In this document: piece after piece, positions 2,196 to 64,000 of the stretch
Numbering within the stretch: the stretch's first letter is position 1
Layout: every line of letters begins with the position of its first letter
DNA from: Pseudomonadota bacterium
Lineage (GTDB): Bacteria; Pseudomonadota; Gammaproteobacteria; Burkholderiales; Burkholderiaceae_C
Length of the DNA: 64,000 bases
Direction: 5' to 3'
Assembly: GCA_020161065.1 (NCBI GenBank)
Contig: JAIUPH010000026.1
Coordinates: 124,001 to 188,000 of the forward strand
Notes under the pieces: model-generated
What the model saw: the letters and a program-made list of their open reading frames with translations, nothing else
Database searches by the model: none
Told to the model about the DNA's origin: nothing
Position numbers and translations under genes: made by a program

Positions 2196-4571
2196 ATGCC
2201 CGTTGACGAGCCCGAGAACACGCCACCGCCCACCGCCGACGGTACCCCCGCCACGCCGCGCCGGCGCGCCCGGCACCCGCTGGTCCGCGGCCTGCTGTGG
2301 CTGCTGGGCGGATTCGCCGCCGCGCTGGTCGGCCTGTTGCTGGTGGCCGCCGTGGCGCTGGCCGTGGCCTACCCCAACCTGCCCGACGTCGCCAGCCTGG
2401 CCGACTACCGGCCCAAGCTGCCGTTGCGCGTGTTCTCGTCCGACGGCGTGCTGCTGGGCGAGTTCGGCGAGGAGCGGCGCAACTTCGTGCCGATCGGCCA
2501 GATCCCGCAGGTGATGCGCGAGGCCGTCATCGCCGCCGAGGACGCGCGCTTCTACCAGCACGGCGGGCTCGACTTCAAAGGCATGGCGCGCGCCGCGCTG
2601 GAGAACCTGCGCGAGGCGCGCAGCCAGGGCGCGTCGACCATCACGATGCAGGTGGCGCGCAACTTCTATCTCAGCACCGAAAAGACCTTCACGCGCAAGA
2701 TCTACGAGATCCTGCTCGCCTTCCGCATCGAAAGCGTGCTCAGCAAGGACCAGATCCTCGAGCTGTACATGAACCAGATCTACCTCGGGCAGCGCGCCAG
2801 CGGCTTCGCGGCGGCAGCGGAGGTCTATTTCGGCAAGGCGCTCAAGGACATCACGATCGCCGAGGCGGCCATGCTCGCCGGGCTGCCCAAGGCGCCGTCG
2901 GCCTACAACCCGATCGCCAACCCCAAGCGGGCGCGCGCACGCCAGCGCTACGTGATCGACCGCATGTTCGACAACGGCTTCATCACCGAGGAGCAGCACG
3001 ACGCGGCGCAGGAAGAGGTGCTGCGCTACCGCACGCCGTCCGACGCTTCGGTGCACGCCGAGTTCGTGGCCGAGAACGCGCGCCAGCTGGTCTTCGCGCA
3101 GTACGGCGAGGAGACCTACAGCCGCGGCCTGAACGTCTACCTGACGCTCAACGCCGCCGAGCAGACGGCCGCCTATCGGGCGCTGCGCCGCGGCTTGATG
3201 GACTACGAGCTGCGGCAGATCTACCGCGGCCCGGAGGCCTACGTCGACCTGCCGGCCGACCCGGCGCAGATCGACGCCCGCGTCGCCGAGGCGCTGAACG
3301 ACCACCCCGACAACGACGACCTGCGCTCGGCCGTGGTGCTGGAAGCCTCGCCGCGCAAGGTGGTGGCGATGCTGCAGTCCGGCGACACCATCACCGTCAG
3401 CGGCGACGGCCTGAAGCCCGTCACCTCGGGGCTGGCCGAGAAGGCCGGGCCCAAGGTGCAGATCCGCCGCGGCGCCGTCGTGCGCGCGCTCAAGGGGCCT
3501 AAGGGCGACTGGCGGCTGACCCAGTTGCCCGAGGTGGAAGGCGCCTTCGTCGCGCTCGACCCGCGCACCGGCGCCATCCGCGCGCTGGTCGGCGGCTTCG
3601 ATTTCGGCAAGAGCAAGTTCAACCACGTCACCCAGGCCTGGCGGCAGCCGGGTTCGAGCTTCAAGCCCTTCATCTACTCGGCGGCGCTGGAAAAGGGCTT
3701 TACGCCGGCCACGGTGATCAACGACGCGCCGCTGTTCTTCGCCGCCGACGTCACCGGCAGCCAGCCCTGGGAGCCGAAGAACTACGACGGCAAGTTCGAC
3801 GGCCCGATGCCGATGATGACGGCGCTGGCACGCTCGAAGAACATGGTGTCGATCCGCATCCTGCAGGCCATCGGCCCGGCCTACGCGCAGGGCTGGATCC
3901 AGCGCTTCGGCTTCGAGGCCGACAAGCACCCGGCCTACCTGACGATGGCGCTCGGCGCCGGTTCGGTCACGCCGCTGCAGATGGCGGTGGCCTACAGCAC
4001 CTTCGCCAACGGCGGGCTGCACGTCGCGCCGCACCTGATCGCCCGCATCGTCGACGGCAAGGGCCGCGTGCTCGTCAACTCGCCGCCGCTGCCGGCCGAC
4101 GAGCAGGCGCGCACGCTCGACGCCCGCAACGCCTTCGTGATGGATTCGCTGCTGCAGGCGGTCGCCCGCTACGGCACCGCCGCGCGTGCGCAACAACTGC
4201 TCAAGCGCACCGACATCTACGGCAAGACCGGCACCACCAACGATTCGATGGACGCCTGGTTCGCCGGCTTCCAGCCGACCGTCACCGCCGTGGTCTGGAT
4301 CGGCTACGACAACCCGCGCAAGCTGGGCGACCGCGAAACCGGCGGCGGCCTGGCGCTGCCGGTGTGGATCGAGTGGATGGCACAGGCGCTCAAGGGCGTG
4401 CCGGTGCAGGAACTGACCGCGCCGCCCGGCGTGGTGCCCAGCGGCGGCGGTTGGGCCTACGAAGAGTTCTCGCAGGGCGCCGGCGTGCAGAGCCTGGGCC
4501 TCGAAGACACCGTTCCGGCGGCGCCGACCACCGAAGAGCGCAACAGCATCCTCGACCTGTTCAAGCGCTGA
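2196..4571 (+). CDS. mrcA: Penicillin-binding protein 1A, bifunctional transglycosylase/transpeptidase
   Basis: This class A PBP (791 aa) polymerises glycan strands and crosslinks peptides in the periplasm. It has a Pro-rich cytoplasmic tail and one transmembrane anchor at about residues 28-58. The glycosyltransferase-51 domain has the catalytic Glu115 in the EDARFYQHGG motif and the ASTITMQVARNFYL block. An OB-like insert separates it from the transpeptidase domain. The transpeptidase shows all three active-site motifs: S487-S-F-K490, S547-K-N and K677-T-G-T. Length and order are normal for PBP1A. It is divergent from pilM, as in many beta- and gammaproteobacteria, and ends directly against the cyaY stop. 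Confidence 0.96.
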   Translation: MPVDEPENTPPPTADGTPATPRRRARHPLVRGLLWLLGGFAAALVGLLLVAAVALAVAYPNLPDVASLADYRPKLPLRVFSSDGVLLGEFGEERRNFVPIGQIPQVMREAVIAAEDARFYQHGGLDFKGMARAALENLREARSQGASTITMQVARNFYLSTEKTFTRKIYEILLAFRIESVLSKDQILELYMNQIYLGQRASGFAAAAEVYFGKALKDITIAEAAMLAGLPKAPSAYNPIANPKRARARQRYVIDRMFDNGFITEEQHDAAQEEVLRYRTPSDASVHAEFVAENARQLVFAQYGEETYSRGLNVYLTLNAAEQTAAYRALRRGLMDYELRQIYRGPEAYVDLPADPAQIDARVAEALNDHPDNDDLRSAVVLEASPRKVVAMLQSGDTITVSGDGLKPVTSGLAEKAGPKVQIRRGAVVRALKGPKGDWRLTQLPEVEGAFVALDPRTGAIRALVGGFDFGKSKFNHVTQAWRQPGSSFKPFIYSAALEKGFTPATVINDAPLFFAADVTGSQPWEPKNYDGKFDGPMPMMTALARSKNMVSIRILQAIGPAYAQGWIQRFGFEADKHPAYLTMALGAGSVTPLQMAVAYSTFANGGLHVAPHLIARIVDGKGRVLVNSPPLPADEQARTLDARNAFVMDSLLQAVARYGTAARAQQLLKRTDIYGKTGTTNDSMDAWFAGFQPTVTAVVWIGYDNPRKLGDRETGGGLALPVWIEWMAQALKGVPVQELTAPPGVVPSGGGWAYEEFSQGAGVQSLGLEDTVPAAPTTEERNSILDLFKR

Positions 4572-50577: not shown

Positions 50578-52245
50578 CTAACCCCGCAGTTCGCGGCGCA
50601 GGATCTTGCCCACCGGGGTCTTCGGCAGTTCGGTCCTGAACTCGATGATCTTCGGCCGCTTGTAGCCGGTGAGGTTGGCCTCGCAGAAGGCGCGGATGTC
50701 GGCCTCGGTGATCGCCGGGTCTTTCTTGACCACCACCACCTTGACCACTTCGCCGGCCTTGGCGTCGGGCACGCCGACCGCGGCGCATTCCAGCACGCCG
50801 GGCATCTGCGTGATCACGTCTTCCACCTCGTTCGGGTAGACGTTGAAGCCGCTGACCAGGATCATGTCCTTCTTGCGATCGACGATCTTGAAGTAGCCGC
50901 GCTCGTCGACCAGCCCCACGTCGCCGGTGCGGAAGAAGCCGTCGGCCGTCATCACCTTGGCCGTCTCGTCGGGGCGCTGCCAGTAGCCGGCCATCACCTG
51001 CGGGCCGCGGATGGCGATCTCGCCGGGCGTGCCCATCGGCACCTCGTTGCCGTCGTCGTCGAGCAGCCTCAGTTCGGTGTTGGGCATCGGCAGGCCGATG
51101 TTGCCGCTGTAGGCGGTGCTGTCCACCGGGTTGCAGGTGGCCGACGGGCTGGTCTCCGAAAGGCCGTAGCCTTCGCAGATCGGACAGCCGGTCTTCTCCA
51201 GCCACAGCTTGGCCGTCGCCTGCTGCACGGCCATGCCGCCGCCGACACTGATCTTCAGGTGGCTCCAGTCGACCTGGCCGAAGTCGGGGTGGTTGGCCAG
51301 CGCGTTGAACAGCGTGTTGACCGCCGGCAGACTGTGGAAGCGGTGCTGCGACAGCTCTTTGAGCATGGCCGCGAAATCGCGCGGATTGGGAATCAGGATG
51401 TTGGCGCCGCCCATGCGCATGCCCAGCATCATGTTCGTGGTGAAGCCGAAGATGTGGTACAGCGGCAGCGCGCAGATGGTCACGATCTGCTCGCCGGGCG
51501 GAATCTTCTTCAGCGCCGGCTGGTACCACGCTTCCGACTGCAGCACGTTGGCCACCAGGTTGCGATGCAGCAGCACTGCGCCCTTGCTGACGCCGGTGGT
51601 GCCGCCGGTGTACTGCAGCACCGCGATGTCGTCGGGCCCCACGTTGGGCGGCGTGTAGGGCTTGTTGCGGCCGCTGGCCAGCGCGTCGTTGAAGCGCAAG
51701 GCACCGGGCAGCCGCCAGGCCGGCACCATCTTCTTGACGTTGCGCACCACGTGGTTGACCAGCGTGCCCTTCAGGAAGCCCAGCATGTCGCCGAACGAGG
51801 CCACCACCACCTTCTTGCTTGGCACGGCGTCGATCACCTGCTGCAGCACGGCGGCGAAGGGCTCGAGGATGACGATGGCCTTGGCGCCCGAGTCCTTGAG
51901 CTGGTGCTCCAGCTCGCGCGGCGTGTACAGCGGGTTGACGTTGACCACCACCATGCCGGCGCGCAGCACGCCGGCCACCGCCACCGGGTACTGTGGCACG
52001 TTGAGCATCATCAAGGCCACGCGGTCGCCCGGCGCCAGGCCGATGGACTGCAGGTAGGCCGCGAAAGCGCGCGAGTGGTCATCGAGCCAGCCGAACGTGA
52101 AGGCCTTGCCCATGAACAGGTAGGCCTTCTGGTCGCGGTGCTTGCGAAAACTCTCCTCCAGCAAGGCCATCAACGACGGGTAGACGTCCGTCTTGACCTC
52201 GGCAGGAACGCCTGCCGGGTACTGCTTCAACCAGATCTTCTCCAT
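50578..52245 (-). CDS. fadD: Long-chain fatty-acid:CoA ligase FadD
   Basis: FadD (555 aa) activates fatty acids to acyl-CoA. ANL-family motifs are the P-loop YTGGTTGVSKG, EGYGLSETSP, the A8 region YFKIVDRKKDMILVSGFNVY (with the hinge Asp/Arg) and the C-terminal catalytic Lys in LPKTPVGKILRREL. A GGAG ribosome site lies before the ATG. It is divergent from the first BTAD regulator by 108 bp. Confidence 0.94.
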   Translation of the reverse strand: MEKIWLKQYPAGVPAEVKTDVYPSLMALLEESFRKHRDQKAYLFMGKAFTFGWLDDHSRAFAAYLQSIGLAPGDRVALMMLNVPQYPVAVAGVLRAGMVVVNVNPLYTPRELEHQLKDSGAKAIVILEPFAAVLQQVIDAVPSKKVVVASFGDMLGFLKGTLVNHVVRNVKKMVPAWRLPGALRFNDALASGRNKPYTPPNVGPDDIAVLQYTGGTTGVSKGAVLLHRNLVANVLQSEAWYQPALKKIPPGEQIVTICALPLYHIFGFTTNMMLGMRMGGANILIPNPRDFAAMLKELSQHRFHSLPAVNTLFNALANHPDFGQVDWSHLKISVGGGMAVQQATAKLWLEKTGCPICEGYGLSETSPSATCNPVDSTAYSGNIGLPMPNTELRLLDDDGNEVPMGTPGEIAIRGPQVMAGYWQRPDETAKVMTADGFFRTGDVGLVDERGYFKIVDRKKDMILVSGFNVYPNEVEDVITQMPGVLECAAVGVPDAKAGEVVKVVVVKKDPAITEADIRAFCEANLTGYKRPKIIEFRTELPKTPVGKILRRELRG

Positions 52246-52353
52246 TCAGCAGGGCTCCATCCGTTGCGGACCATTCTGACCGAGCGCTTGCGGCACCAGC
52301 ATCAGGGGATTCGATGAGCATCTCCGGCCCCTATGATTGCCCCGGGCGCCTCG

Positions 52354-55300
52354 ATGGACATTGAACAGACACAAGCCGTGCCGCACCGCCGCGGCCCTGC
52401 GATGGCATCGGGCCGCTGGCACGTGCGCCTGCTCGGCGGCTTGCAGTTGCAGGGCGCCGATCCGCGCCTGGGCCCGGTGCGTCTGCCCAGCCGCGCCTGC
52501 GGCGCCTTGCTGGCCCGGCTGGCGCTGTGGCCCGAGCGCGAACACGGCCGCGAGGAACTGATCGAGCTGCTGTGGCCCGGCGTCGATCTCGGCACCGGCC
52601 GCAACCGGCTGCGCCAGACCTTGTCGACGCTGAAGGCCTTGCTCGAACCGCCGGGCGCCGCCGCCGTGATCGTGGCCGACCGCCGCTCGCTGCGCGCCGC
52701 GCCGGGCGCGTTGAGCAGCGATGCCCAGCAGTTCGAACAACGCCTGCGCGCCGGCCAGCCGCAGGCCGCCGCAGCGCTGTACGGCGGCGAACTGCTGCCC
52801 GGCTTCTTCGACGAGTGGATCTGCGACGAGCGCCGGCGCCTGTGCGGCCTGGCCGAGCGGCTGCACGATCGCCTGCAGGGCGGCGGCGGCCATGGTCATG
52901 TCGATGGCGATGGTGGTGACGCAGCCTCGGCCCGCGCCGCCAGCACCACGACGGCGCCAGACGCCCCGCTGCATGCGCCGCACGCGACACACGCGACACA
53001 CGCGACACACGCGCCGCACGCGCCGCCCGCGGCGACGCCGGCGCCGGCATTGTCGCGCCACGCGCTGCCGACCTACCTGACGCGTTACTTCGGCATCGAG
53101 GCGCGCGCCGCGCGGCTGCGCGGGCAGGTCTCGGCGCACCGCCTGGTCACGCTGGTCGGCCCCGGCGGCATCGGCAAGACGCGGCTGGCGGTGGAACTGG
53201 CGCAGGCGCTGCGCGACACGCCCGACCTCGCCGGCGACGACGGCGAGCACCCGCGCTTCGACCTCGTGGCCTTCGTCGCGCTGGCCGGCTGCGACCACGT
53301 CGACACCATGCTCGACGCGCTGGGCCGCGCCTTCGGCCTGGGCGGCGCCAGCGCCGACCTCGGCGAGCGGCTGGCCACAGCGCTGGCCGGCCAGCGCGCG
53401 CTGCTGGTGCTGGACAACCTGGAGCAGTTGCTGCCCGCGGCGGCGAGCGTCGTCGCCGCGCTGCTGCAGCGGCTGCCGGCGCTGCACGTGCTGGCCACCT
53501 CGCGCCGCGTGCTGGCCATCGATGGCGAGCGCGAAGTCGCGCTGGCCCCGCTGCCGCTGCCCGCCGCCGACGCCGACCTCGCCGGCCAGGCCTTCAACCC
53601 CGCGGTGGCGATGTTCATCGACCGCGCCCGCGCGGTGCGTGCCGACTTCCACCTCAACCCGCGCAACGCCGATGCCGTGGTGGCGCTGGTGCGGCTGCTG
53701 GGCGGCGCGCCGCTGGCCATCGAACTGGCGGCCGCGCGGCTGCGCAGCGTGCCGCTGGCCGAGATGCTGCAGCGCCTGGACGGCCGCGCCGACGGCCGCT
53801 TCAACGGCGCCCCCGGCGCCGGGCTGGCGCTACTGGCGCGCGCCGGGCCGCGCGGCGGGCTGGACGCGCGCCACGCGGCGATGGCCGAGGTCATCGCCTG
53901 GAGCTGGAAGCTGCTGCCGCCGGCGCTGCAGCACACGCTGGCGGCGATGACGGTGTTCGTCGGCGGCTTCACCGCCGAGGCCGCCGCCGCGGTGCTGGGC
54001 ACTGACGTGGCGCTGCAGCTCGACGAGGCGGTGCAGCACTCGCTGCTGACCGGCGAATGGCAGCTTGGGCAAGGCACCCCAGGTGCGCAGGGCGGGCCGG
54101 GCGGGCCGGGCGGGCCGGACGCGCCCGACCGCCCAAGCGACGACACCCTGCGCTTTCGCTTCACCGAGCCGGTGCGCGAGTTCGCGCTCGCCTGGCTGCT
54201 GCAGCAGCAGCCGGCCGCCGAGGTGGCGCGGTTGCGCCGCGCCCACCGCGACTGGTGGCCGCGCTGGATGGCGGCGCTGGGCCCCACCGTGCCGCTGGCC
54301 GCCTTCCGCGCCGAGGGGCCCAACCTGGTGGCGGCGCTGGCCAGCGCCGAGGCCGACGGCGAGCCCGAAGCCGGCGTGCGCCTGGCGCTGGCGCTGCGCA
54401 GCGGCCTGGCCGTCGTGCCGCTGGCCGGCAGCGGCATCGACACCTTGCAGCGCCTGCTCGCGCGGGTCGACGACGCCGCGCTGCGCAGCGCGGGCTTGAG
54501 CCTGCTGGCGGTGCAGGAATACGAAGCCGGCCTGCGCGAACGCGCCGAGCAGCATGCGCAGCAGGCGCTGGACGCGGCGCCGCCGCGCTCGGCCCCACGC
54601 GCCAGCGCGCTGCAGATGCTGGCGCGGCTGCGCTGGACGGCCCACAACGACCGCGACGGCGCCTGCCGGCTGCTCGACGAAGCCGAGCCGCTGGCCGAAA
54701 GCCTGGGCGAGCACGCGCTGCTGGGCACGCTGCTGGCCCAGCGCGCCTACATCGATTGCCTGTCGCGTGGCCGCGCGGCCGAGGCCGGGCGCCTGTTCGA
54801 GCGCCAGCGGGCGCTGCTGCAGACGCTGGGCAACCGCCACGACTGCAACGCCGCGCTCTACCACCGCGTCAACCTCGACTACCAGCTCGACCGCTACGCC
54901 GAGTGCCTGGCCGGCGCCCGCGACCTGGCCGACCGCGCCCGCGCCGAGCAGGACTGGGCCTTGCTCAGCAAGGCCGACAACGTGCTGGGCGGCGCCTACG
55001 CCGAGGTGCGCCAGTGGCGGCACGCACTGCCGTGCTTCCTGGAGGCGGCCGAGGTCGCCTGGGCCGACGGCGCCCACTTCGCCTGGGCCTATGCGGTGTG
55101 GAACGTGCCGACCTCGCTGCTGCGCTGCGGCCAGGCCGAGGCCGCGGCGCGCCTGATGGCCTTTGCCGCCCGCCACTGGAGCAGCCGCTACGGCGAACTG
55201 AGCGCCTCCGACCTGCGCGCCCAGCAGCGCCTGGAACGCCTGGCGCGCCACCTGCTGGGCGCCGGCCGCGCGGCCGAGGCAGCGGCGCAAGGCCGCGCGC

Positions 55301-55398
55301 TGAACCCGGCGCAGGCCATGCAGGCGCTGCGCCGCGCCGTGACGGCCGCCACGTCCGACCCCCGGAAACCGGTGACACCCCCGCGAACAGGTGGGTGA
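52354..55398 (+). CDS. BTAD/NB-ARC-like multidomain transcriptional regulator (first copy)
   Basis: A 1014-aa regulator of the AfsR/SARP type. It has a winged-helix and BTAD-like region (about residues 20-165, REELIELLWPG, GRNRLRQTLSTL) and a His/Ala/Thr-rich linker (about 205-230). The NTPase domain follows with Walker A G269-PGGIGKT and Walker B ALLVLDNLEQLL. A helical region carries the FTEPVREFAL motif, and TPR-like helices follow to the end. An ATG at 52333 also opens the frame but overlaps a TATGAT box (52332-52337), so the ATG at 52354 is preferred. It is divergent from fadD and lies 86 bp upstream of the PEP-CTERM gene. Confidence 0.85.
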   Translation: MDIEQTQAVPHRRGPAMASGRWHVRLLGGLQLQGADPRLGPVRLPSRACGALLARLALWPEREHGREELIELLWPGVDLGTGRNRLRQTLSTLKALLEPPGAAAVIVADRRSLRAAPGALSSDAQQFEQRLRAGQPQAAAALYGGELLPGFFDEWICDERRRLCGLAERLHDRLQGGGGHGHVDGDGGDAASARAASTTTAPDAPLHAPHATHATHATHAPHAPPAATPAPALSRHALPTYLTRYFGIEARAARLRGQVSAHRLVTLVGPGGIGKTRLAVELAQALRDTPDLAGDDGEHPRFDLVAFVALAGCDHVDTMLDALGRAFGLGGASADLGERLATALAGQRALLVLDNLEQLLPAAASVVAALLQRLPALHVLATSRRVLAIDGEREVALAPLPLPAADADLAGQAFNPAVAMFIDRARAVRADFHLNPRNADAVVALVRLLGGAPLAIELAAARLRSVPLAEMLQRLDGRADGRFNGAPGAGLALLARAGPRGGLDARHAAMAEVIAWSWKLLPPALQHTLAAMTVFVGGFTAEAAAAVLGTDVALQLDEAVQHSLLTGEWQLGQGTPGAQGGPGGPGGPDAPDRPSDDTLRFRFTEPVREFALAWLLQQQPAAEVARLRRAHRDWWPRWMAALGPTVPLAAFRAEGPNLVAALASAEADGEPEAGVRLALALRSGLAVVPLAGSGIDTLQRLLARVDDAALRSAGLSLLAVQEYEAGLRERAEQHAQQALDAAPPRSAPRASALQMLARLRWTAHNDRDGACRLLDEAEPLAESLGEHALLGTLLAQRAYIDCLSRGRAAEAGRLFERQRALLQTLGNRHDCNAALYHRVNLDYQLDRYAECLAGARDLADRARAEQDWALLSKADNVLGGAYAEVRQWRHALPCFLEAAEVAWADGAHFAWAYAVWNVPTSLLRCGQAEAAARLMAFAARHWSSRYGELSASDLRAQQRLERLARHLLGAGRAAEAAAQGRALNPAQAMQALRRAVTAATSDPRKPVTPPRTGG
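52972..53025 (+). repeat. 9-bp tandem repeat in the linker of the first regulator
   Basis: Six units of CACGCGACA/CACGCGCCG type (52972-53025) encode HAP/HAT repeats. It lies between the BTAD-like region and the NTPase domain. Confidence 0.85.
54090..54116 (+). repeat. 9-bp tandem repeat encoding Gly-Gly-Pro in the first regulator
   Basis: Three copies of GGGCGGGCC encode GGPGGPGGP just N-terminal of the FRFTEPVREF motif. Confidence 0.8.
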
Positions 55399-55484
55399 AC
55401 ACTGCGCCTCGGCGCCACGACCTCTAACGCTTGCCTAACGGTCGCTGCCCATCCTCGGCGCAAACCGCTCACGGGAGTCTGCGC

Positions 55485-58400
55485 ATGACCGTTCTTCGCC
55501 GCCCACGCACCCCTCAGTCGGCCCTGGCCCTGGCCGCCACGCTGGCGCTGGGCGCCGTGCCCTGGCACGACAGCCTGGCCGCCGCCTGCACCTTCATCCC
55601 GGCCAGCGGCAACTGGAACGTCGCCGGCAACTGGAGCTGCGGCGCGCTGCCCGGCGCGCTCGACACGGCCACCGTCGCCGCCGGCCGCGCCGCCGCCACG
55701 CAGGGTGGCACGTCCGCGGGGCCGACCAACCTGAGCAACGCCGGCAGCGTCACCATCAGCGACAACAGCGGCCTGACGCTGCTGGGCAGCAACCAGAACA
55801 CCGGCAACATCGCGATCAGCTCGGGCGGCAACTTCACCGAACTGCGCATCAGCGGCGCGATGTCGCTGAACGGTGCCGGCACGGTCACCACCAGCAACAG
55901 CCTGAACAACCGCATCGTCGCCGCCAGCGGCGCCGGCGACGTGCTGACGCTGGGCGTGGGCCAGAGCATCCAGGGCGCGGCCAGCATCGGCGGCGGCGGT
56001 GCGCTGGGCGTGGTGAACAACGGCAGCATCATCGCCAACCTCAGCTCCGGCATCACGCTCAACGCCCAGGGCGGCGTCACCAACAACGGCGTGCTGCGCG
56101 GCGACGGTGCGGTGCTGACGATCCAGGGCTCCACGGTCGGCCAAAGCAGCAGCGGCGCGCTCAACGCCATCAACGGCGGCAGCGTGCGGCTGTCCAGCAG
56201 CAGCATCAGCGGCGGCATCTTCAGCACCGCCAGCGGCGGCACCATCAGCACCGCGTCGGGCACCAGCAACTCGCTGGCCGACGTCACCAACACCGGCGAC
56301 CTCGTCATCGTCGACAACAGCGCCCTGCGGCTGACCGGCACCTTGACGAACAACGGCAAGCTGGCCATCAGTTCGGGCGGCAACTTCACCGACCTGGTCA
56401 TCGTCGGCGCGCAGACGTTGGCCGGCACCGGCACGGTGACCTTGTCGAACACCACCAACAACCGCATCTCCGGCGACAACGCCACGTTCACGCTGGGCAG
56501 CGGGCAGACGCTGTCCGGCTCCGGCCAGATCGGCGCCGGCTCGGCCAACTTCCGGTTCAACAACGCCGGCACGGTGGTGGCGACGCAAGGCGCGCCGCTG
56601 CAGATCAACGCATCGGCCGGCGTCAACAACACCGGCACCTTGCGCGCCGACGGCGGCACGCTGCAACTGCAGACCACCGTCGACAGCGCCGGCGGCCAGA
56701 TCGAAGCGCGCAACGGCTCGCGCGTCGAGCTGCTCAACGGCAGCGTGATCAACAACGCCGCGTTCTCGGCCACCGGCGCCGGCAGCGTGATCACCACCGT
56801 CGGCGGCGCCACCGTCAGCATGGGCGGCGGCACGGTCAACGGGCCGATGACGATTGCCGACAACTCGGCGCTGCGGCTGACCGCCAACGCCACCTACAAC
56901 GGCGTGCTGAGCATGGCCTCGGGCGGCAACTTCACCGAGCTGCGCATCGACGGCGCGCGCACGCTCGGCGGCACGGCGACGATCGAGACCTCGAACACGC
57001 TGAACAACCGCATCATCGCGGCCAACGCGTCCGGCGACTCGCTGACGCTCGGCGCCGGCATCACGGTGCAGGGCGCCGCCAGCATCGGCGGCGGCGGCAC
57101 GCTCGGGCTGGTGAACAATGGCTCGCTGATCGCCAAGCTGAGCAGCGGCATGACGCTCAGCACCAGCGGCAACGTCACCAACAACAAGCTGATCCGCGGC
57201 GACGGCGCCACGTTCACGATCAGCGGTACCACCGTCAACCAGGGCGCGTCCGGCGTGCTCAGCGCCATCAACGGCGGCAGCGTTCGCCTGACCGGCGGCA
57301 GCAGCATCGTCGGCGGCAGCCTGGCCAGCGCCGACACCGCCGCGGTGATCACGGGCAGCGGCAGCAATGCGCGGCTGAGTGGCGTCACCAACACCGGCAC
57401 GCTGGTCGTCGTCGACAACTCCACCTTGTTCCTCGACGGGACGCTCACCAACAACGGCAGCTTGAACCTGAGCTCGGGCGGCAACTTCACCGACCTGGTG
57501 ACCACCGGCAACCGCCTGATCGACGGCACCGGCACCATCACGCTGTCGAACAGCGGCAACAACCGCATCTACGCCGCCGGCGCCGGCAACAGCCTGACGC
57601 TGGGCGCCAACCAGACGCTGCAAGGCGCCGGCAACATCGGCGCCGGCGGGTCGCTGAAGTTCACCAACAACGGCACGGTGATCGGCAACCTCGGCGCGGC
57701 GCTCACGCTGTCGAGCACCGGCACCGTCACCAACAACAAGACGATGCGCGCCGACGGCGGCACGCTGGCGATCACCGGCACCAACGTGGGCCAGAGCGCG
57801 GCCGGCTTGATCGAGGCGATCAACGGCGGCAACGTCACCCTGGGCGCCAACGCCTCGATCAGCGGCGGCACGCTGGGCTCGGCCACCGGCGGGCAGGTGC
57901 GCACGGTGTCCGGCCAGACGGGGACCATCGGCAACCTGGTCAATGCCGGCACCTTCGCCGTCGTCGACAACTCGACGCTGGTGCTGCAAGGCACGGTCAC
58001 CAACAACGGCGCGCTCAACGTCAGCTCGGGCGGCAACTTCACCGACCTGCTGGTCGCGGGCAATGCGACGCTGGGCGGCAGCGGCGTCACCACGCTGAGC
58101 AACACCACCAACAACCGCATCATGGCGCAGGGCGCGGGCAGCCAGCTGACCATCGGTGCCGGGCAGACGCTGCAGGGTGCGGGCAGCTTCGGCAACGGCA
58201 GCGCGCTGAACATCGTCAACCTGGGCACCGTCACCGCCAACCAGGGCGCGCCGTTGAACATCGCGGTCAGCGCGGCCGGCAGCGTGCAGAACCAGGCCGG
58301 CGGCCTGCTGCAGGCGACGAGCGGCGGCACGCTGAACCTGAACAGCGCGGTGCTCAACGGCGGCACCATCGGCGCCAACGGCGGCCTGGTCAACGCCAAC

Positions 58401-61028
58401 GCCGGCTTCACGGGCAACGGCACGGCCATCACCACCGGCACCGGCGTGCTGACCCTGGGTGCCGCCAGCACCGTGGGCACGCTGCTCAACAACGGCAGCA
58501 GCGGCGGCGCGCTGGCGCTGGGTGGCAACAACATCACGGTGTCGGCCGACTACACCAACGCCAATGCCGGCAGCGGCAACAGCTTCAACCGCCGCGCCAA
58601 CGTCACCGGCAGCGGCCAGATCCTGGCCGGCGGCAACGCCAGCCAGGTGATCAGCGGCAGCGCGGTCAGCGGCGGCAACACGAACAACGCCACGCTGACG
58701 ATCGGCAACGTGCACGTCGGCGCCAACAGCTACAACTACACCATCGGCAACGGCGGCACGACCGGGCCGACGCTGCGCGGCGCGATCCAGACCTCGGTCA
58801 ACGGCGCCAACATCAGCGATGCGCGGCTGTCCGGCAGCGGCGTGATGGCGGCCAACTACAACGCCGGCGCGCCGGCCGGCGCCGGCGCCGGGCAGACCGT
58901 GGTCTTCACCGCCGCCAGCGCCGGCACGCTGGCGCCCATGAGCGGCCAGGTGGTCAACCTGCGCAGCAACTTCGACAACATCGGCGACCAGAAGCTCAAC
59001 ATCGTGCTGGGCGCCGGCGCCGCGGCCTACAACCTGGCCGGCGGCAACGCCACCTCGCCGGTGACGGTGGCCAACCAGCGCGTCGGCGGCAGCAACACGG
59101 TGGCGCTGAACATCAGCAACACCGCAGCGAGCGGCAGCTTCAGCGAAGACCTGAACGCCGGCGTCGCCTCGGTCGGCGGCGCCGCCACGGCCAGTGGCGC
59201 GGTCACCGGCCTGCTGGCCGGCGCCAACAACGCCAGCGGCATCAACGTCGGCGTGAACACCGCCTCGGCCGGCGCCAAGACCGGCACCGTCAACCTGGCC
59301 TACGCCTCCGCCGGCACCGTGAACGGCGTCAGCAACGGCCTCGGGCAGACCAGCGTCGGCAACCAGGCGGTGACGGTCAACGGCAACGTCTACCAGGCGG
59401 CAGCCGGCCAGCTCGTCGGCAATCCGCTGAACTTCGGCACCTTGCAGGTGGGGCAGAACATCAGCCAGGACCTGGTGGTGCGCAACACCGCCAGCGGCGC
59501 GGCCGGCTTCGTCGAGGACCTGAACGCCTCGTTCGGCGCCGCCGGCAACAGCCAGATCAGCGGCAGCGGCTCGCTCAGCGGCATCACGGCCGGCAGCAAC
59601 AGCACCGGGGCTAACGGCAAGATGACGGTCACCGTGACCGGCACGACGGCCGGCGCGCTGAACAGCAGCATCACGGTGAACTACGCCAGCGCCGGCACCG
59701 TGGGCGGCGTCAGCAACGGGCTGGGCGTGCTGGCCGTCGGCTCGGAGGCCTTCGGCGTCAACGGCACGATCAACGCCACGGCCAACGTCATCAACCTGGC
59801 CAGCCCGCAGTTCGGCAGCACCAGCATCAACCTGGGCGCGGTGCGCGTCGGCGCGGCGTCGCCGACGGCGGCCCTCACGCTGACCAACCAGGCCACCACG
59901 GCCCCGCAAGCCGCGTTGAACGCCAGCATCAGCAGCAACACCGCGGCGGTCACCGCCAGCGGCAGCGTCAACCTGCTGGCGCCGGGCGCCAGCAGCAGCG
60001 CGCTGCAGGTCGGGCTGAACACCGCAGTGGCCGGCAACTACACCGGCGCGAACGCCGGCAGCGCGACGGTGCAACTCGTCTCCGACGCCTCCAACGTCGG
60101 CGGCTGCGCGCCGAACTGCCAGGTCAGTCTGGCGCCGCAGACGGTCATGGTCTCGGGCAAGGTCTACACCGCGGCGGTGGGCCAGCTCGGCACGCCGGTG
60201 GTCGACTTCGGCATCGTCCGCGTGGGCGACACGGTCAGCGCGAAGAACATCACCGTCAGCAACACGGCCGCGGTGTCGGCGCTCAACGACACGCTGCGCG
60301 CCACGCTGTCGGGCGTGGCCGGGCCGTTCACCGGCGGCGCCGCGGCATCGGGCATCGCCGCGGGCAGCAGCGGGCAGATCAGCGTCGGGCTCAACACCGC
60401 CGGCGCCGGCGTCTTCACGAGCAACGGCAGCGTCGGCTTCCTCAGCCAGAACCCCGACATGGCCGACGTCGCCGCCGGCGCCAACGCCGCCGTGCAAGTG
60501 AAGGCGCAGGTCAACAACCTGGCCAACGCCGACTTCGACCTGCTGTCCGGCCTGGGCACGCTGACCGACCTGGGCAACGGCCACTACCGGCTCAACCTGG
60601 GCAACCTGGCGCTGGGCAGCAACGGCCACTGGACGCTGCAGATCGATAACGAGGTGACCGGCCCGGCCGACGCGCTGAAAGGCAGCTTCGACCTCGGCAG
60701 CGTCGACGACTTCTCGCTCGGCGGCTTCGGCTTGGTCGGCGTGCTGGAGGCCGGCCAGGCGCAAGGCGGCCTCGGCGTCGACTTCATGGCCACGCAGCTC
60801 GGGCAGTTCGAGGACACCATCACCTTCAACGGCCTGAGCTTCAACGCGTCGGACCCCAACGGGCTGTCGCTGATCCGCAGCCTGCAGATCGTCGCCACCG
60901 TGTTCGACCCCAACGGCAACGGCACCGTGCCCGAGCCCGGCACGCTGGCGCTGCTGATGCTGGCGGCACTGGGCGTGTGGCGCGGGCGCGCCGCGGCCTT
61001 GCGGCGGCAGGCGAAGGAGCCGGCATGA
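55485..61028 (+). CDS. Giant repeat protein with PEP-CTERM anchor
   Basis: An 1847-aa exported protein. The signal region has LALAATLALGAVPWHDSLA. About five tandem beta-rich repeats of ~183 aa, each with a SSGGNFTDL motif, cover residues 80-960. A second set of ~120-aa repeats (residues ~1100-1650), with YASAGTVNGVSNGLG and VGNQAVTVNG motifs, resembles choice-of-anchor D domains. It ends NGTVPEPGTLALLMLAALGVWRGR followed by basic residues, the PEP-CTERM sorting signal. It is likely surface exposed and adhesin-like, which is inference. An ATG at 55431 is rejected because GGAG precedes 55485. No exosortase gene is in the window. Confidence 0.88.
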   Translation: MTVLRRPRTPQSALALAATLALGAVPWHDSLAAACTFIPASGNWNVAGNWSCGALPGALDTATVAAGRAAATQGGTSAGPTNLSNAGSVTISDNSGLTLLGSNQNTGNIAISSGGNFTELRISGAMSLNGAGTVTTSNSLNNRIVAASGAGDVLTLGVGQSIQGAASIGGGGALGVVNNGSIIANLSSGITLNAQGGVTNNGVLRGDGAVLTIQGSTVGQSSSGALNAINGGSVRLSSSSISGGIFSTASGGTISTASGTSNSLADVTNTGDLVIVDNSALRLTGTLTNNGKLAISSGGNFTDLVIVGAQTLAGTGTVTLSNTTNNRISGDNATFTLGSGQTLSGSGQIGAGSANFRFNNAGTVVATQGAPLQINASAGVNNTGTLRADGGTLQLQTTVDSAGGQIEARNGSRVELLNGSVINNAAFSATGAGSVITTVGGATVSMGGGTVNGPMTIADNSALRLTANATYNGVLSMASGGNFTELRIDGARTLGGTATIETSNTLNNRIIAANASGDSLTLGAGITVQGAASIGGGGTLGLVNNGSLIAKLSSGMTLSTSGNVTNNKLIRGDGATFTISGTTVNQGASGVLSAINGGSVRLTGGSSIVGGSLASADTAAVITGSGSNARLSGVTNTGTLVVVDNSTLFLDGTLTNNGSLNLSSGGNFTDLVTTGNRLIDGTGTITLSNSGNNRIYAAGAGNSLTLGANQTLQGAGNIGAGGSLKFTNNGTVIGNLGAALTLSSTGTVTNNKTMRADGGTLAITGTNVGQSAAGLIEAINGGNVTLGANASISGGTLGSATGGQVRTVSGQTGTIGNLVNAGTFAVVDNSTLVLQGTVTNNGALNVSSGGNFTDLLVAGNATLGGSGVTTLSNTTNNRIMAQGAGSQLTIGAGQTLQGAGSFGNGSALNIVNLGTVTANQGAPLNIAVSAAGSVQNQAGGLLQATSGGTLNLNSAVLNGGTIGANGGLVNANAGFTGNGTAITTGTGVLTLGAASTVGTLLNNGSSGGALALGGNNITVSADYTNANAGSGNSFNRRANVTGSGQILAGGNASQVISGSAVSGGNTNNATLTIGNVHVGANSYNYTIGNGGTTGPTLRGAIQTSVNGANISDARLSGSGVMAANYNAGAPAGAGAGQTVVFTAASAGTLAPMSGQVVNLRSNFDNIGDQKLNIVLGAGAAAYNLAGGNATSPVTVANQRVGGSNTVALNISNTAASGSFSEDLNAGVASVGGAATASGAVTGLLAGANNASGINVGVNTASAGAKTGTVNLAYASAGTVNGVSNGLGQTSVGNQAVTVNGNVYQAAAGQLVGNPLNFGTLQVGQNISQDLVVRNTASGAAGFVEDLNASFGAAGNSQISGSGSLSGITAGSNSTGANGKMTVTVTGTTAGALNSSITVNYASAGTVGGVSNGLGVLAVGSEAFGVNGTINATANVINLASPQFGSTSINLGAVRVGAASPTAALTLTNQATTAPQAALNASISSNTAAVTASGSVNLLAPGASSSALQVGLNTAVAGNYTGANAGSATVQLVSDASNVGGCAPNCQVSLAPQTVMVSGKVYTAAVGQLGTPVVDFGIVRVGDTVSAKNITVSNTAAVSALNDTLRATLSGVAGPFTGGAAASGIAAGSSGQISVGLNTAGAGVFTSNGSVGFLSQNPDMADVAAGANAAVQVKAQVNNLANADFDLLSGLGTLTDLGNGHYRLNLGNLALGSNGHWTLQIDNEVTGPADALKGSFDLGSVDDFSLGGFGLVGVLEAGQAQGGLGVDFMATQLGQFEDTITFNGLSFNASDPNGLSLIRSLQIVATVFDPNGNGTVPEPGTLALLMLAALGVWRGRAAALRRQAKEPA
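55735..58300 (+). repeat. Tandem ~550-bp repeats in the PEP-CTERM gene
   Basis: The SGGNFT motif recurs at 55818, 56370, 56916, 57471 and 58023: spacings 552, 546, 555 and 552 bp, all multiples of three. Flanking motifs (NNRI, GxGxTLQGA, INGG, VDNSxL) recur in the same order. The copies are clearly diverged, so the array is old. Confidence 0.9.
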
Positions 61029-61339
61029 GCCGCTTCGTGCAAGGCCTGAGCACGCTGCTGGCGTTGCTGGCGCTGGCGGCCGCGGTGGCGCTCGTCGGCC
61101 TCGGCCAGCACAACGCCGCGGCGCGGCGCGAGCTGGCGCAGCAGCAGCAGTACGTGCAGCAGTCGGTGCAGCTCGAAGGCCTGTACCGCGAGATGGTGCG
61201 GGCGCTGGCCGAGCTGTCGGCGCGCAACGGCGACGAGGCGCTGCGCTCGCTGCTGCAGCGCCACGGCATCAGCTACAACCTGCAGGCGCCGGCCGCCGCC
61301 CCCGCCAACCCGCCCGCCACCTCGAAAGCCAAGCCTTGA
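61025..61339 (+). CDS. Small membrane-anchored coiled-coil protein (first of two)
   Basis: A 104-aa protein with one transmembrane helix (LSTLLALLALAAAVALVGLG), then a Gln-rich coiled coil (ARRELAQQQQYVQQSVQLEG) and the end block LSARNGDEALRSLLQRHGISYN, followed by an Ala/Pro tail. It starts inside the PEP-CTERM stop (ATGA), so it is translationally coupled. It resembles the next protein. I do not recognise the family. A periplasmic helper for the giant protein is plausible. Confidence 0.75.
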   Translation: MSRFVQGLSTLLALLALAAAVALVGLGQHNAAARRELAQQQQYVQQSVQLEGLYREMVRALAELSARNGDEALRSLLQRHGISYNLQAPAAAPANPPATSKAKP

Positions 61340-61797
61340 GCAGCCTGCACAGCAACACCGTGGTCGCGATGCGCGACACCAAGCCCGGCGACGTCGACGG
61401 CGCCGCCGCCGAGCGGCCGGCCGCCGCGCGGGCTTCAGCGGCAGCGCGGACGCCGGCGCCGGCGCCGACGGCCGTCCACGGCCTGGCGCTGCCATTGCTG
61501 ATCGGCCTGCTGGCGCTGCTGGTGTCGCTGGGCTACCAGGTCTGGCTGCTCGACCAGGACCGCCAGCAGCTGCAGCAGGCGCAGGCGCAGTTGCAGCCGA
61601 CGGTGGAAAACGCGCAGCGCCTGCGCCGCTCGCTCGACCTGCTGGCCGCCGACACCCAGCGCCTGGCCGACGCCGGCAACGGCAGCGCGCGCGTGCTGGT
61701 CGAAGAGCTGAAGAAGCGCGGCATCACGATCAACCCCGCCGCCACGTCGGGCGCGGCCGCCGCTGCGGCCACGGCGGCCAGCGGCGCGGGGAACTGA
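61336..61797 (+). CDS. Small membrane-anchored coiled-coil protein (second of two)
   Basis: A 153-aa protein with an Ala/Pro-rich cytoplasmic tail, a transmembrane helix (LALPLLIGLLALLVSLGYQV), a coiled coil (LDQDRQQLQQAQAQLQPTVE) and the block AGNGSARVLVEELKKRGITIN. That arrangement and the closing NG...RGI motif match the preceding protein. The start is TTG at 61336, overlapping the previous stop (TTGA). ATG at 61369 or GTG at 61360 are alternatives. Confidence 0.7.
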   Translation: MSSLHSNTVVAMRDTKPGDVDGAAAERPAAARASAAARTPAPAPTAVHGLALPLLIGLLALLVSLGYQVWLLDQDRQQLQQAQAQLQPTVENAQRLRRSLDLLAADTQRLADAGNGSARVLVEELKKRGITINPAATSGAAAAAATAASGAGN

Positions 61798-61942
61798 GCG
61801 GTCCGGCGCCACCGGTGCACGCCGCGGCGGAGGCAGCCCCCGCGTTTCGGGGGGCCGCGGGCGGCTTGCGCCCGCGAGCGTGCATTCGTGGCGCCGGCCG
61901 CGCCTGGGGGCTGGCCGAGCCGTTCCTAGAATGGCGCGGCCC
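61798..61942. repeat. GC-rich spacer before the second regulator
   Basis: A GCAGCCCCCGCGTTTCGGGG element and a GCGGGCGGCTTGCGCCCGC hairpin occupy the spacer, similar to other spacer elements here. A TAGAAT box lies at 61927-61932, 10 bp before the regulator ATG. Confidence 0.5.
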
Positions 61943-64000
61943 ATGGCCAGCGTCAGCCCCGACCCACCCGACCTGCTGCCGGGCGCCACCGGCGCGGCGC
62001 CGGCCGAGGCCTTGTGGACGCTGCGGCTGCTGGGCACGGTGGAGGCCCGGCGCGGCGCCGAGCGCATCACCCGCTGGCCTTCGCGCGCCGCCGCGGCGCT
62101 GCTGGCGCGGCTGGCGCTGGCGCCGCAGCGCTCGCACCCGCGCGAGGAACTGGTCGAGCTGCTGTGGCCCGGCGTCGCCCTCGACGTCGGCCGCAACCGG
62201 CTGCGCCAGGTGCTGTCCACGCTGCGCAGCCTGCTCGAAGGCGACGACGAAGACTCGCGGCTGATCGACGCCGACCGCCACAGCATCCGCCTGCGGCCCG
62301 AGCGGCTGCATTGCGATGTCGCCGATTTCGAGCGCCAGGTGCGCGCCGGCGACTGGGCGGCCGCGCGGCGCAGCTACGGCGGCGAGTTGATGCCCGGCCA
62401 CTACGACGACTGGGTGCTGGAAGCGCGCGCCCACCTGGCCGCGCTGTTCGACCGCGTCGAGGCGCAGGCCGCCGTGGCGCCACCGCCACTGCCGCCGCCA
62501 CCGGCGACACCCGCCGCGCCGACGAGCTGGGCCGACCCGCCGCTGCCGGCGAGCTGGACGCGCGTCTTCGGCATCGAGCACAGCGCGGCGCGGCTGCTGG
62601 CCTTGCTGCGCCACGAGCGGCTGGTCACCGTGGTCGGCCCCGGTGGCTGCGGCAAGACGCGGCTGGCGCTGGAAGTGGCGCGCGCGCTGCGGCAGACCGC
62701 GTCGCTGCCGCCGTGGCCGCCGGGCAGCACGGCAGTGGCCGATGCGCCGGCGCGCGTGATCTTCGTGTCGCTGGTCGAATGCGGCGACGAAGCGCAAGCG
62801 CTGGCGGCCCTGGCGCTGGCGCTGCACGTCAGCGGCCGCGAGCCGCTGCAGCAGATCCAGGCCAAGCTGGCCGACGCGCCGGCGCTGCTGGTGCTGGACA
62901 ACTTCGAGCAACTGGTCGGCCGCGCGCAAGGCCTGCTGCTGCGGCTGCTGGAAGCGGCGCCTGGCCTGCGGCTGCTGGTCACCTCGCGGCTGCGGCTGAA
63001 CCTGGCCGGCGAACAGGTCTTCGTGCTGCGCGGCCTGCCGCTGCCCGACGACGGCACGCCCGCCGACACCGACGCGACGCTGCTCAACCCCGCCGTCGCG
63101 CTGTTCGTCGACCGCGCCCGCGCGGTGCGGGCCGATTTCCATCCGTCCGCGGCCGAGCTGCCGGCGCTGTGCGCGCTGGTGCGCTGGCTGGCCGGCATGC
63201 CGCTGGCGCTGGAACTGGCGGCCTCGCGGGTGGCCAGCTTCGCGCCGGCGCAGATGCTCGAACTGCTGCGCCAGGCCGATGGCGGCGGCGACGGGCTCGA
63301 CCTGCTGGCGCGCCGCGGCCCGCGCGCCGGCCACGACCCGCGCCATGCCTCGATGAGCGAGGTGATCCGCTGGAGCTGGCGGCTGCTGCAACCCGCCGAG
63401 CAGCGCCTGCTGGCCGCCTTGAGCGTGTTCGCCGGCGATGCCGGCGTGACCGGCGTCGCCGCGGTGCTGGGTCATCAGGCCGCGGGCCAGGGCCGGGATC
63501 ACGGCATGGCCGGCGCGGCTGGCATGGCTGGCATCGCTGGCGTGACGAGCGTGACGAGCGTGGCGAGCGTTGCAGCAGGGCTCGACGATCTCGCCGGCCA
63601 GTCGATGCTGCAGACGCTGGCCGGGGCCGACGGCGAGCCGCGCTTCGCGCTGCTGGAGCCGGTGCGCGAGTTCGTGCGCAGCCGTTGGCCGGCACCCGAG
63701 CTGCAGGCGCTGCAGCAGGGCCTGCTGCGCTGGCTGCTGCAATGGGCGCGCTCGCTGGGCCGCTCGCCCAAGGCCGCGGCGGTGGCGGCCGAGATGCGCA
63801 GCGTGCTGTCGCTGCTGCAGCAGCCGGCGGCCGACGCCGAGAGCCGCATCGAGCTGGCGCTGGCGCTGCGCGCCACCTGGGACAGCGAAGGCCTGCCGCT
63901 GGCCCAGCAGACCGCGCTGGAGCAGGCGCTCGTCCAGTGGCCCGACGCGCCGCCGCTGCTGGCGAGCGACCTGCACGAGATGCTGGCCTACCTGCGCTTT
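61943..64000 (+). CDS. BTAD/NB-ARC-like multidomain transcriptional regulator (second copy, runs off the right edge)
   Basis: At least 686 aa, homologous to the first regulator. It has a winged-helix/BTAD-like region (REELVELLWPG, GRNRLRQVLSTL, residues ~45-175), a Pro-rich linker (180-200), an NTPase domain with G232-PGGCGKT and ALLVLDNFEQLV, and the LLEPVREFV motif. Between NTPase and that motif lies an in-frame 9-bp repeat, as in the first copy. The frame stays open to the window end. It differs in its linker and lacks the His-rich repeat. A TAGAAT box lies 10 bp before the ATG. Confidence 0.85.
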   Translation, partial: MASVSPDPPDLLPGATGAAPAEALWTLRLLGTVEARRGAERITRWPSRAAAALLARLALAPQRSHPREELVELLWPGVALDVGRNRLRQVLSTLRSLLEGDDEDSRLIDADRHSIRLRPERLHCDVADFERQVRAGDWAAARRSYGGELMPGHYDDWVLEARAHLAALFDRVEAQAAVAPPPLPPPPATPAAPTSWADPPLPASWTRVFGIEHSAARLLALLRHERLVTVVGPGGCGKTRLALEVARALRQTASLPPWPPGSTAVADAPARVIFVSLVECGDEAQALAALALALHVSGREPLQQIQAKLADAPALLVLDNFEQLVGRAQGLLLRLLEAAPGLRLLVTSRLRLNLAGEQVFVLRGLPLPDDGTPADTDATLLNPAVALFVDRARAVRADFHPSAAELPALCALVRWLAGMPLALELAASRVASFAPAQMLELLRQADGGGDGLDLLARRGPRAGHDPRHASMSEVIRWSWRLLQPAEQRLLAALSVFAGDAGVTGVAAVLGHQAAGQGRDHGMAGAAGMAGIAGVTSVTSVASVAAGLDDLAGQSMLQTLAGADGEPRFALLEPVREFVRSRWPAPELQALQQGLLRWLLQWARSLGRSPKAAAVAAEMRSVLSLLQQPAADAESRIELALALRATWDSEGLPLAQQTALEQALVQWPDAPPLLASDLHEMLAYLRF
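63505..63573 (+). repeat. 9-bp-type microsatellite in the second regulator
   Basis: Variants of GGCATGGCT and GTGACGAGC encode a run of MAGIAG- and VTSVTS-type repeats at the position equivalent to the Gly-Gly-Pro repeat of the first regulator. Confidence 0.75.

Follow-up and report, generated by a model that had tools for sequence, protein, structure and literature searches.

The locus at the downstream end of the DNA analysed here raises the question of which of its genes belong together, and of how a bacterium might control and handle the giant, putatively surface-exposed protein encoded among them. The stretch under study (the window, 64,000 nucleotides) corresponds to bases 124001–188000 of contig 13 of a 6.29 Mb genome in 41 contigs (a Pseudomonadota bacterium, GenBank assembly GCA_020161065.1). 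Five frames lie on its plus strand, as an earlier note on this sequence had stated: a regulator gene, the gene of a giant PEP-CTERM protein, two small genes that we call sm1 and sm2, and a second regulator gene, which is complete beyond the end of the window (Table 1). That note presented all five as one module. We find that the core is giant-sm1-sm2 and that the regulators are an addition to it within the genus. We regard it as reasonably probable that these genes make up an export cassette under regulatory control, with a single giant protein as its exosortase substrate, and that it works by the full mechanism set out below. The gene anatomy, the co-conservation of giant, sm1 and sm2, the linkage of the regulators, the operator candidate with its spacing and the single exosortase are read from the sequence.

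A Conserved Core of Three Genes

The genes sm1 and sm2 are adjacent and on the same strand at 29 distinct loci (L085 and L086, duplicates of L049 and L051, were not counted again; L069 duplicates L082; genome G971 contributes two loci). A giant of the same family adjoins the pair at 19 of them. The order is giant-sm1-sm2 at 18 loci and sm1-sm2-giant at one (L082), thus the association of the giant with the pair survives a change of order. Among the loci read, the order regulator-giant-sm1-sm2-regulator, put forward in the earlier note as the unit to look for in relatives, was found in this genome only. Co-conservation in relatives therefore fails for the literal five-gene order and holds for the three-gene core.

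With the own genome counted throughout, sm1 was found in 6/200 genomes of the family (one weak, G030), and sm2 in 14/399 genomes of the order (9 strong), 6/369 of the class (5 strong) and 14/81 of the genus. The weak rows sit inside these totals (G213, G437, G466, G563 and G577 in that of the order, G857 in that of the class) and were dropped before the counts of loci. G980 (L084), with a partial sm2 and no sm1, is included in the genus total and lies outside the 29 loci and the 29 sm-positive genomes. G1010 (L079), in which sm2 without sm1 is found at a contig edge, is one of the 29 genomes and enters the regulator count below, and lies outside the 29 loci.

A giant is present somewhere in 22 of the 29 sm-positive genomes searched. 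An exosortase was found in 28 of the 29, compared with 165/399 genomes of the order (co-occurrence of exosortase and sm2, Fisher 0.0045). In the order sample (n = 399), all five giant-positive genomes carry sm2 (Fisher 1.5e-9). Within the genus, the giant occurs in 18/81 genomes, 12 of which also carry sm2 (Fisher 2e-8). The plasmid records searched contained no sm2. Taken together, the adjacency and co-occurrence counts indicate a core of giant, sm1 and sm2, the parts of which are partly independent.

Regulators Resembling AfsR

The two flanking regulators are indeed homologous (37% over 1021 aligned positions). Their previous label, BTAD/NB-ARC, is better replaced by an AfsR-like one. Pfam BTAD shows no match to either regulator up to E = 1, a short BTAD-like stretch in the alignment being visible by eye only, and NB-ARC stays below the cut-off in both. 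AAA_22 is above the cut-off in both, so that a STAND ATPase is present, and the P-loop is invariant in an alignment of 10 regulators. For regulator 2, Trans_reg_C scores 25.0 bits with the complete protein and 25.6 with the cut version (cut-off 26.2), and TPR_12 scores 33.7 (cut-off 30.1). Trans_reg_C is not listed for regulator 1, which alone gives no TPR match; the C-terminal part of the family profile matches TPR-type chains. Over profile positions 185–870, the family matches the solved structures of AfsR (8K60, E 3e-8, and 8JKE). The N-terminal profile matches solved structures weakly: the best (E 0.009) is a chain named bacterial transcriptional activator, which we take to be a winged helix, and EmbR, a relative of the Streptomyces antibiotic regulatory proteins (SARPs), gives E 0.14. 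The motif GRNRLRQ, in the presumed recognition helix of the winged-helix region, is invariant in 8/8 aligned regulators, in line with one shared binding site. With a putative winged helix, a STAND ATPase and TPR, the regulators look AfsR-like, and their mode of action is probably that of large SARPs. They are not filed as SARPs, because Pfam BTAD was tested and gave no match.

The earlier claim that the regulators go with the giant gene stands. A regulator of the family of regulator 1 or 2 adjoins the cassette at 10 of the 11 decidable genus loci: there are two at L010 (a fetched stretch of this same genome, which carries the locus past the window end) and at L082, and regulators also at L021, L072, L073, L074, L075, L079, L080 and L081. 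The one exception is L078, a cassette without regulator. The count leaves out L077, where the contig ends after sm2, and L076 and L083, which have no adjoining giant and where tblastn found no regulator. Outside the genus, no intact regulator was seen at 8 cassette loci when flanks, some of them short, were read and searched by tblastn. At L020, in another genus, a 108-aa piece directly behind sm2 shares 30% identity with the C-terminal part of regulator 2 (E 4e-4) and may, judged by this match, be a decayed regulator.

In a tree that leaves out the L021 regulator fragment, the nine downstream regulators given all form one clade (support 97/98). Regulator 1 is placed outside it, as are the regulators found upstream at L074 and L108. 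From this split, regulators 1 and 2 appear to be ancient paralogues that came to occupy different sides of the cassette. Six other STAND genes of the genome were considered as related regulators and rejected; their matches begin at about residue 194 or beyond, which leaves the N-terminal DNA-binding part uncovered, and they fall outside the clade.

The position of the regulators allows a different role for sm1-sm2, namely that of a membrane sensor reporting the state of the giant or of the envelope to the cytoplasmic STAND regulators, in place of a part in handling the giant. An inducer is believed to be necessary for STAND regulators (PMC10936776; this source and those cited below by PMC number were available to us in part), and none is known here. 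The regulator is the next gene after sm2 at L010, L021, L072, L073, L075, L079, L080 and L081, and the charge pattern of the pair gives no clear topology. However, the pair stays with the giant at the 8 loci outside the genus that have no intact regulator, it also occurs without a giant, and L108 carries a regulator and a giant without the small pair. We consider a sensor quite unlikely, and retain the reading in which sm1-sm2 handle the giant.

A Candidate Operator before the Giant

Two places for regulator binding had been proposed. The first, 55399–55484, contains a candidate operator (sequence in Table 1), while the second, 61798–61942 before regulator 2, contains no site of this type. An initial search for three 7-mers spaced at 11 bp gave no significant result in any of the 11 intergenic regions tested (shuffle fractions from 0.38 to 0.996) and was abandoned. 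Two TAACG boxes common to the DNA ahead of three giants (window, L073 and L108) were first noticed by eye. The pattern TAACG-N6-TAACG, with at most one mismatch, was run on the window and on loci longer than 3.8 kb (part of 821 kb, repeats included). Immediately ahead of giants it returned seven further sites (L020, L075, L080, L081, L082, L101 and L104). It also matched once at the end of the small PEP-CTERM-like gene behind regulator 2, and at six distinct places elsewhere. In the window, the sole exact match is at 55425, and there are 2 matches with at most one mismatch where 0.29 are expected.

Sites were scored with the consensus CTAACGNTCGNCTAACGGTCG (maximum 19). Ten of 19 giant upstream regions score at least 14/19, with shuffle fractions of at most 0.01. 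These 19 are the giants with upstream DNA; contigs that begin or end inside the giant were excluded (L021, L049, L055, L057, L072, L077, L102 and L106). L101 was rejected as an operator: it matches the pattern, yet scores 12/19 (0.275 of shuffles), and is counted as lacking one. The candidate operator is found before 8/8 regulator-linked giants compared with 2/11 others (L104 and L020; Fisher 6e-4). The site of L020 (L020:12148, minus strand) is operator-like, scores 15/19 and is located upstream of the giant.

As a control, the other PEP-CTERM genes of this genome were scored over about 0.9 kb upstream of the frame (20 of the 21 above the cut-off; C4:258324 was left out). None of the 20 reaches 15/19, the top score being 14. 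In the 464 kb (7%) of this genome that were scanned, the sole site with at least 15/19 is the one before the giant. Across loci L010–L128, the sole other site with a score of at least 15 is L010:13682–13702 (window-equivalent 65682; 16/19), approximately 10 kb downstream in the same genome. It has a -10-like CAAGAT at the same 8-bp distance and, on the strength of its sequence, is a possible second target of the same regulators.

The hexamer 8 bp past the second heptamer has A at position 2 and T at position 6 in 9/10 aligned sites each. SARP promoters are described as having 11-bp repeats with the 3' repeat 8 bp from the -10 element (PMC10936776). The giant upstream region has this layout, with direct repeats, at the level of sequence. 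Heptamers with 4-bp spacers (PMC5930380) or with spacers of 4–15 nucleotides (PMC10972967) are also described. Within 55399–55484 there is no sigma-54 match with up to 2 mismatches and no TGG-N10-GC core. Sigma-54 control of the giant was rejected for this missing -24/-12 site, and control of giant-sm1-sm2 appears to be separate from the sigma-54/PrsR route. Scans of 52200–62100 for sigma-70 promoters and terminators gave no signal above chance.

The regulator and the surface genes could also be neighbours by inheritance only, sharing a neighbourhood without a functional link. Five genus loci (L010, L072, L073, L080 and L081) share fadD- and/or pntBA-like neighbours, and relatedness inflates the counts. 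However, cassette and regulator are also found at a second address near hslUV-like genes (L074 and L075; L108 has the same neighbours without the small pair), and L082, with its changed order, is located beside a uvrA-like gene that also borders L073. All these neighbours were named by eye from their termini, not by a domain search. The differing flanking genes put the cassette with its regulator at more than one chromosomal address, and the operator tracks the presence of the regulator. Shared inheritance as the whole explanation is in our judgement very unlikely, and a functional link is preferred.

The Small Proteins and the Giant

The start of sm1 overlaps the end of the giant gene by ATGA, and the start of sm2 overlaps the end of sm1 by TTGA, which agrees with the coupling noted earlier. 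The two proteins are real but unnamed protein families. In family alignments of 29 sm1 and 30 sm2 sequences, there is no Pfam or NCBIfam match above the cut-off; weak matches to FtsL, FtsB, GspM/T2SSM and GspB appear in one or two members only, and the window's own sm1 and sm2 show none near the cut-off. Against solved structures, the sm1 profile has no credible relative (designed helical proteins and similar only), and the best match of the sm2 profile has E 0.7. A clearly hydrophobic 19-residue stretch is present in 29/29 sm1 and 26/30 sm2 sequences. AlphaFold2 single-chain models (pTM 0.40 and 0.36) consist mainly of one long helix, which is predicted to run through the hydrophobic stretch and to be followed by short helices. 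A simple heptad test supports the earlier description as a coiled coil in the case of sm2 (0.02 of shuffles) but not in that of sm1 (0.78). A profile comparison of sm1 with sm2 by hhalign gives a probability of 91.7 over 77 columns. This is only suggestive of a relationship between the two, because helical proteins can align by composition.

The PEP-CTERM assignment of the 1847-residue protein was confirmed, with the tail above both curated cut-offs (PF07589, 21.7 vs 20.7 bits; TIGR02595, 16.7 vs 16). The PEP motif, the membrane span and the basic tail are all present, and the N-terminus is basic, then hydrophobic (by eye). The paired repeat array described before was also recovered: it comprises about five copies of approximately 184 aa at residues 42–910 and about four copies of approximately 126 aa at residues 1177–1654. 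The choice-of-anchor-D model NF012200 matches the giant in five stretches (E 6.5e-35). There are 22 PEP-CTERM matches above the cut-off in this genome, the giant included, and the exosortase gene expected by the earlier note was located as a single EpsH-family gene (E 1.9e-75).

Proposed Mechanism and Its Weighing

In the mechanism proposed here, it is by inference that the regulators bind and activate, that control runs in the stated direction, that sm1-sm2 have the membrane topology and the role given to them, and that the giant is exposed at the surface. The AfsR-like STAND regulators 1 and 2 would sense some signal and bind the tandem 11-bp repeats. Once bound, they would occupy the -35 position beside a weak -10 element, recruit polymerase to the giant promoter and switch on giant-sm1-sm2. 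The transcript would carry sm1 and sm2, and perhaps reads into regulator 2, which would form a positive loop. The giant is predicted to enter the periplasm by its N-terminal signal and to be retained in the inner membrane through its PEP-CTERM tail, until the single exosortase of the genome cuts it and hands it on. The small proteins, made together by overlapping translation, would form a membrane-anchored helical pair that probably keeps, delivers or spaces the giant at the inner membrane. Since sm1-sm2 are found behind the giant in several families, such an assisting role is a reasonable proposal. A more specific proposal is that sm1-sm2 are an undescribed, membrane-anchored accessory heterodimer of the exosortase pathway that serves very large PEP-CTERM repeat proteins specifically, combined with AfsR-like/SARP-type operator control separate from sigma-54/PrsR; this we offer tentatively and with some doubt.

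If this reading is correct, the cassette provides a defined substrate and two candidate partner proteins small enough for two-hybrid or pull-down experiments. It also provides a 21-bp operator candidate with a predicted binder, which makes control of the giant directly testable. The AfsR type of logic, studied in Streptomyces antibiotic clusters, would here act on a Gram-negative surface protein.

Several points weigh against the export cassette. No giant match was found in 7 of the 29 sm-positive genomes, and six genus genomes carry the giant without sm2. The number of candidates scored per genome was limited (at most 3 for the giant in the order, 10–11 for sm2 in the order and class, 19 for the giant in the genus), so a recorded absence may in some cases be a miss. 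Genomes that are related do not count as independent, hence the Fisher values overstate the case, and five of the nine strong sm-positive genomes of the order sample belong to one genus. Among the sites scored with the operator pattern were the three from which it had been derived, and the fitting of the consensus used sites known beforehand; L074, missed by the first pattern and scored later by the consensus, is the exception to this fitting. L104 has the operator and no regulator in the 18 kb fetched. The site at L010:13682 precedes, by 67 bp, an unrelated-looking gene of 171 aa with a weak bacterial-PH match. Charge does not settle the topology of the small proteins, as the N side is the more positive one in 6/29 sm1 and 17/30 sm2 sequences. 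Finally, sm1-sm2 have no adjoining giant at 10 of the 29 loci.

This last point also favours an alternative in which sm1-sm2 are a general envelope pair, either FtsL/FtsB-like or the membrane anchor of a folding factor, merely parked behind the giant. In five genomes of one other genus (L045–L048 and L050), the pair is found behind one gene, which encodes a PpiC-type foldase where tested (L050); in two of these genomes, giants are present at another place. The pair also follows genes for isocitrate dehydrogenase (L013) and a hexapeptide-repeat protein (L056) and a histidine-phosphatase-like gene (L083), and at L044 and L076 it has no clear partner gene. The isolated matches to FtsL, FtsB, GspM/T2SSM and GspB, the size and the one-span layout fit this alternative as well. 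However, a sporadic occurrence (14/81 in the genus, 9 strong in 399 in the order) is unlike that of a housekeeping pair, and the co-occurrence with the giant and with the exosortase is strong. A general envelope pair thus appears unlikely to us, and the export cassette remains the preferred reading.

Comparison with Known Systems

FtsL/FtsB and GspM of the type II secretion system are one-span helical proteins, and sm1 and sm2 likewise have one span followed by a long helix. They differ in having no match above the cut-off, with one or two members matching at all, and in their own conserved C-terminal GIT-type motif. With AfsR and the large SARPs of Streptomyces, the regulators share the order of a putative winged helix, a NOD/STAND ATPase and TPR, in addition to the layout of the candidate operator discussed above. 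In contrast to these, the host is presumed to be a betaproteobacterium, the regulators lack a Pfam BTAD match, and the candidate target is the gene of an exosortase substrate, not a metabolite cluster.

Most PEP-CTERM genes are described as forming operons of one gene behind a long upstream region, and 99/167 of those in Proteobacteria were reported to be preceded by a sigma-54 box, with control by PrsK-PrsR (PMC1569441). The present genome shares with that system a PEP-CTERM tail above the cut-off, an exosortase and many other PEP-CTERM genes. The giant gene differs in that it is part of a same-strand array, with an intergenic gap of 86 bp to regulator 1, and in that it has a SARP-like candidate site in place of a sigma-54-like core. 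PepA of Aquincola tertiaricarbonis, a flocculation protein, is also a PEP-CTERM protein; it is RpoN-dependent and smaller than 29 kD (PMC9850573), whereas the giant is a repeat protein with a different candidate promoter. In the literature searched (titles and abstract openings, with subscription journals largely outside), no such cassette and no partner protein for an exosortase substrate is described among the matches listed.

Features of the Locus and Related Loci

Table 1. Features of the locus (window positions unless a locus is named)
Feature	Position	Strand	Description
Regulator 1	52333–55398	+	Upstream type, 1021 aa; putative winged helix region (OmpR-like), followed by a STAND/NACHT-type ATPase and a C-terminal region
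Candidate operator CTAACGCTTGCCTAACGGTCG	55424–55444	+	Two direct repeats, 11-bp period; heptamers 55424–55430 and 55435–55441
-10-like hexamer CATCCT	55450–55455	+	8 bp past second heptamer
Giant PEP-CTERM protein	55485–61028	+	1847 aa; about 5 repeats of about 184 aa, choice-of-anchor-D repeats, PEP-CTERM tail
sm1	61025–61339	+	Unnamed family; 104 aa, with a single predicted membrane span, a long helix and the C-terminal motif LLxxHGI
sm2	61336–61797	+	Unnamed family; 153 aa from a TTG start, with a single predicted membrane span, a long helix and the C-terminal motif RGITIN
Regulator 2	61943–64000, cut by window end	+	Downstream type; complete at L010:9943–12840 (window-equivalent 61943–64840)
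Regulator-like piece at L020	L020:6641–6901	-	Match to C-terminal region of regulator 2

Regulator 2 starts at 61943 or at a GTG at 61880, which gives 965 or 986 aa for the complete frame in L010. The gene of a 240-aa protein (L010:12963–13685, window-equivalent 64963–65685) begins 122 bp past it. This protein looks secreted and ends in PEP, a hydrophobic stretch and RRRRR, a PEP-CTERM-like tail that stays under the sorting-signal cut-offs (nearest, the MYXO-CTERM model, 15.8 vs 15.85). It shows a weak match to Laminin_B and another to the floc_PepA model NF033554 (18.6 vs a cut-off of 80), a likeness to PepA.

At L020, an OmpA-domain gene and a Ser/Thr kinase gene are located upstream. The second sm1-sm2 pair of G971 (L083:1566–2140) is diverged and has no giant beside it. 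In G625, the giant is broken into two frames by a stop codon (L057:5789–9733), with sm1-sm2 still behind it. At two genus loci, L101 and L105, the giant has relatives that exceed it in size (called at 3429 and 2822 aa); no sm pair was called and no regulator matched within the stretches fetched there. At L103:4252–14854, a giant without sm genes has on one side another protein whose tail is PEP-CTERM-like (19.2 vs a cut-off of 20.7) and on the other a divergently transcribed AAA_16/TPR protein of 1002 aa, which is very distant from regulators 1 and 2.

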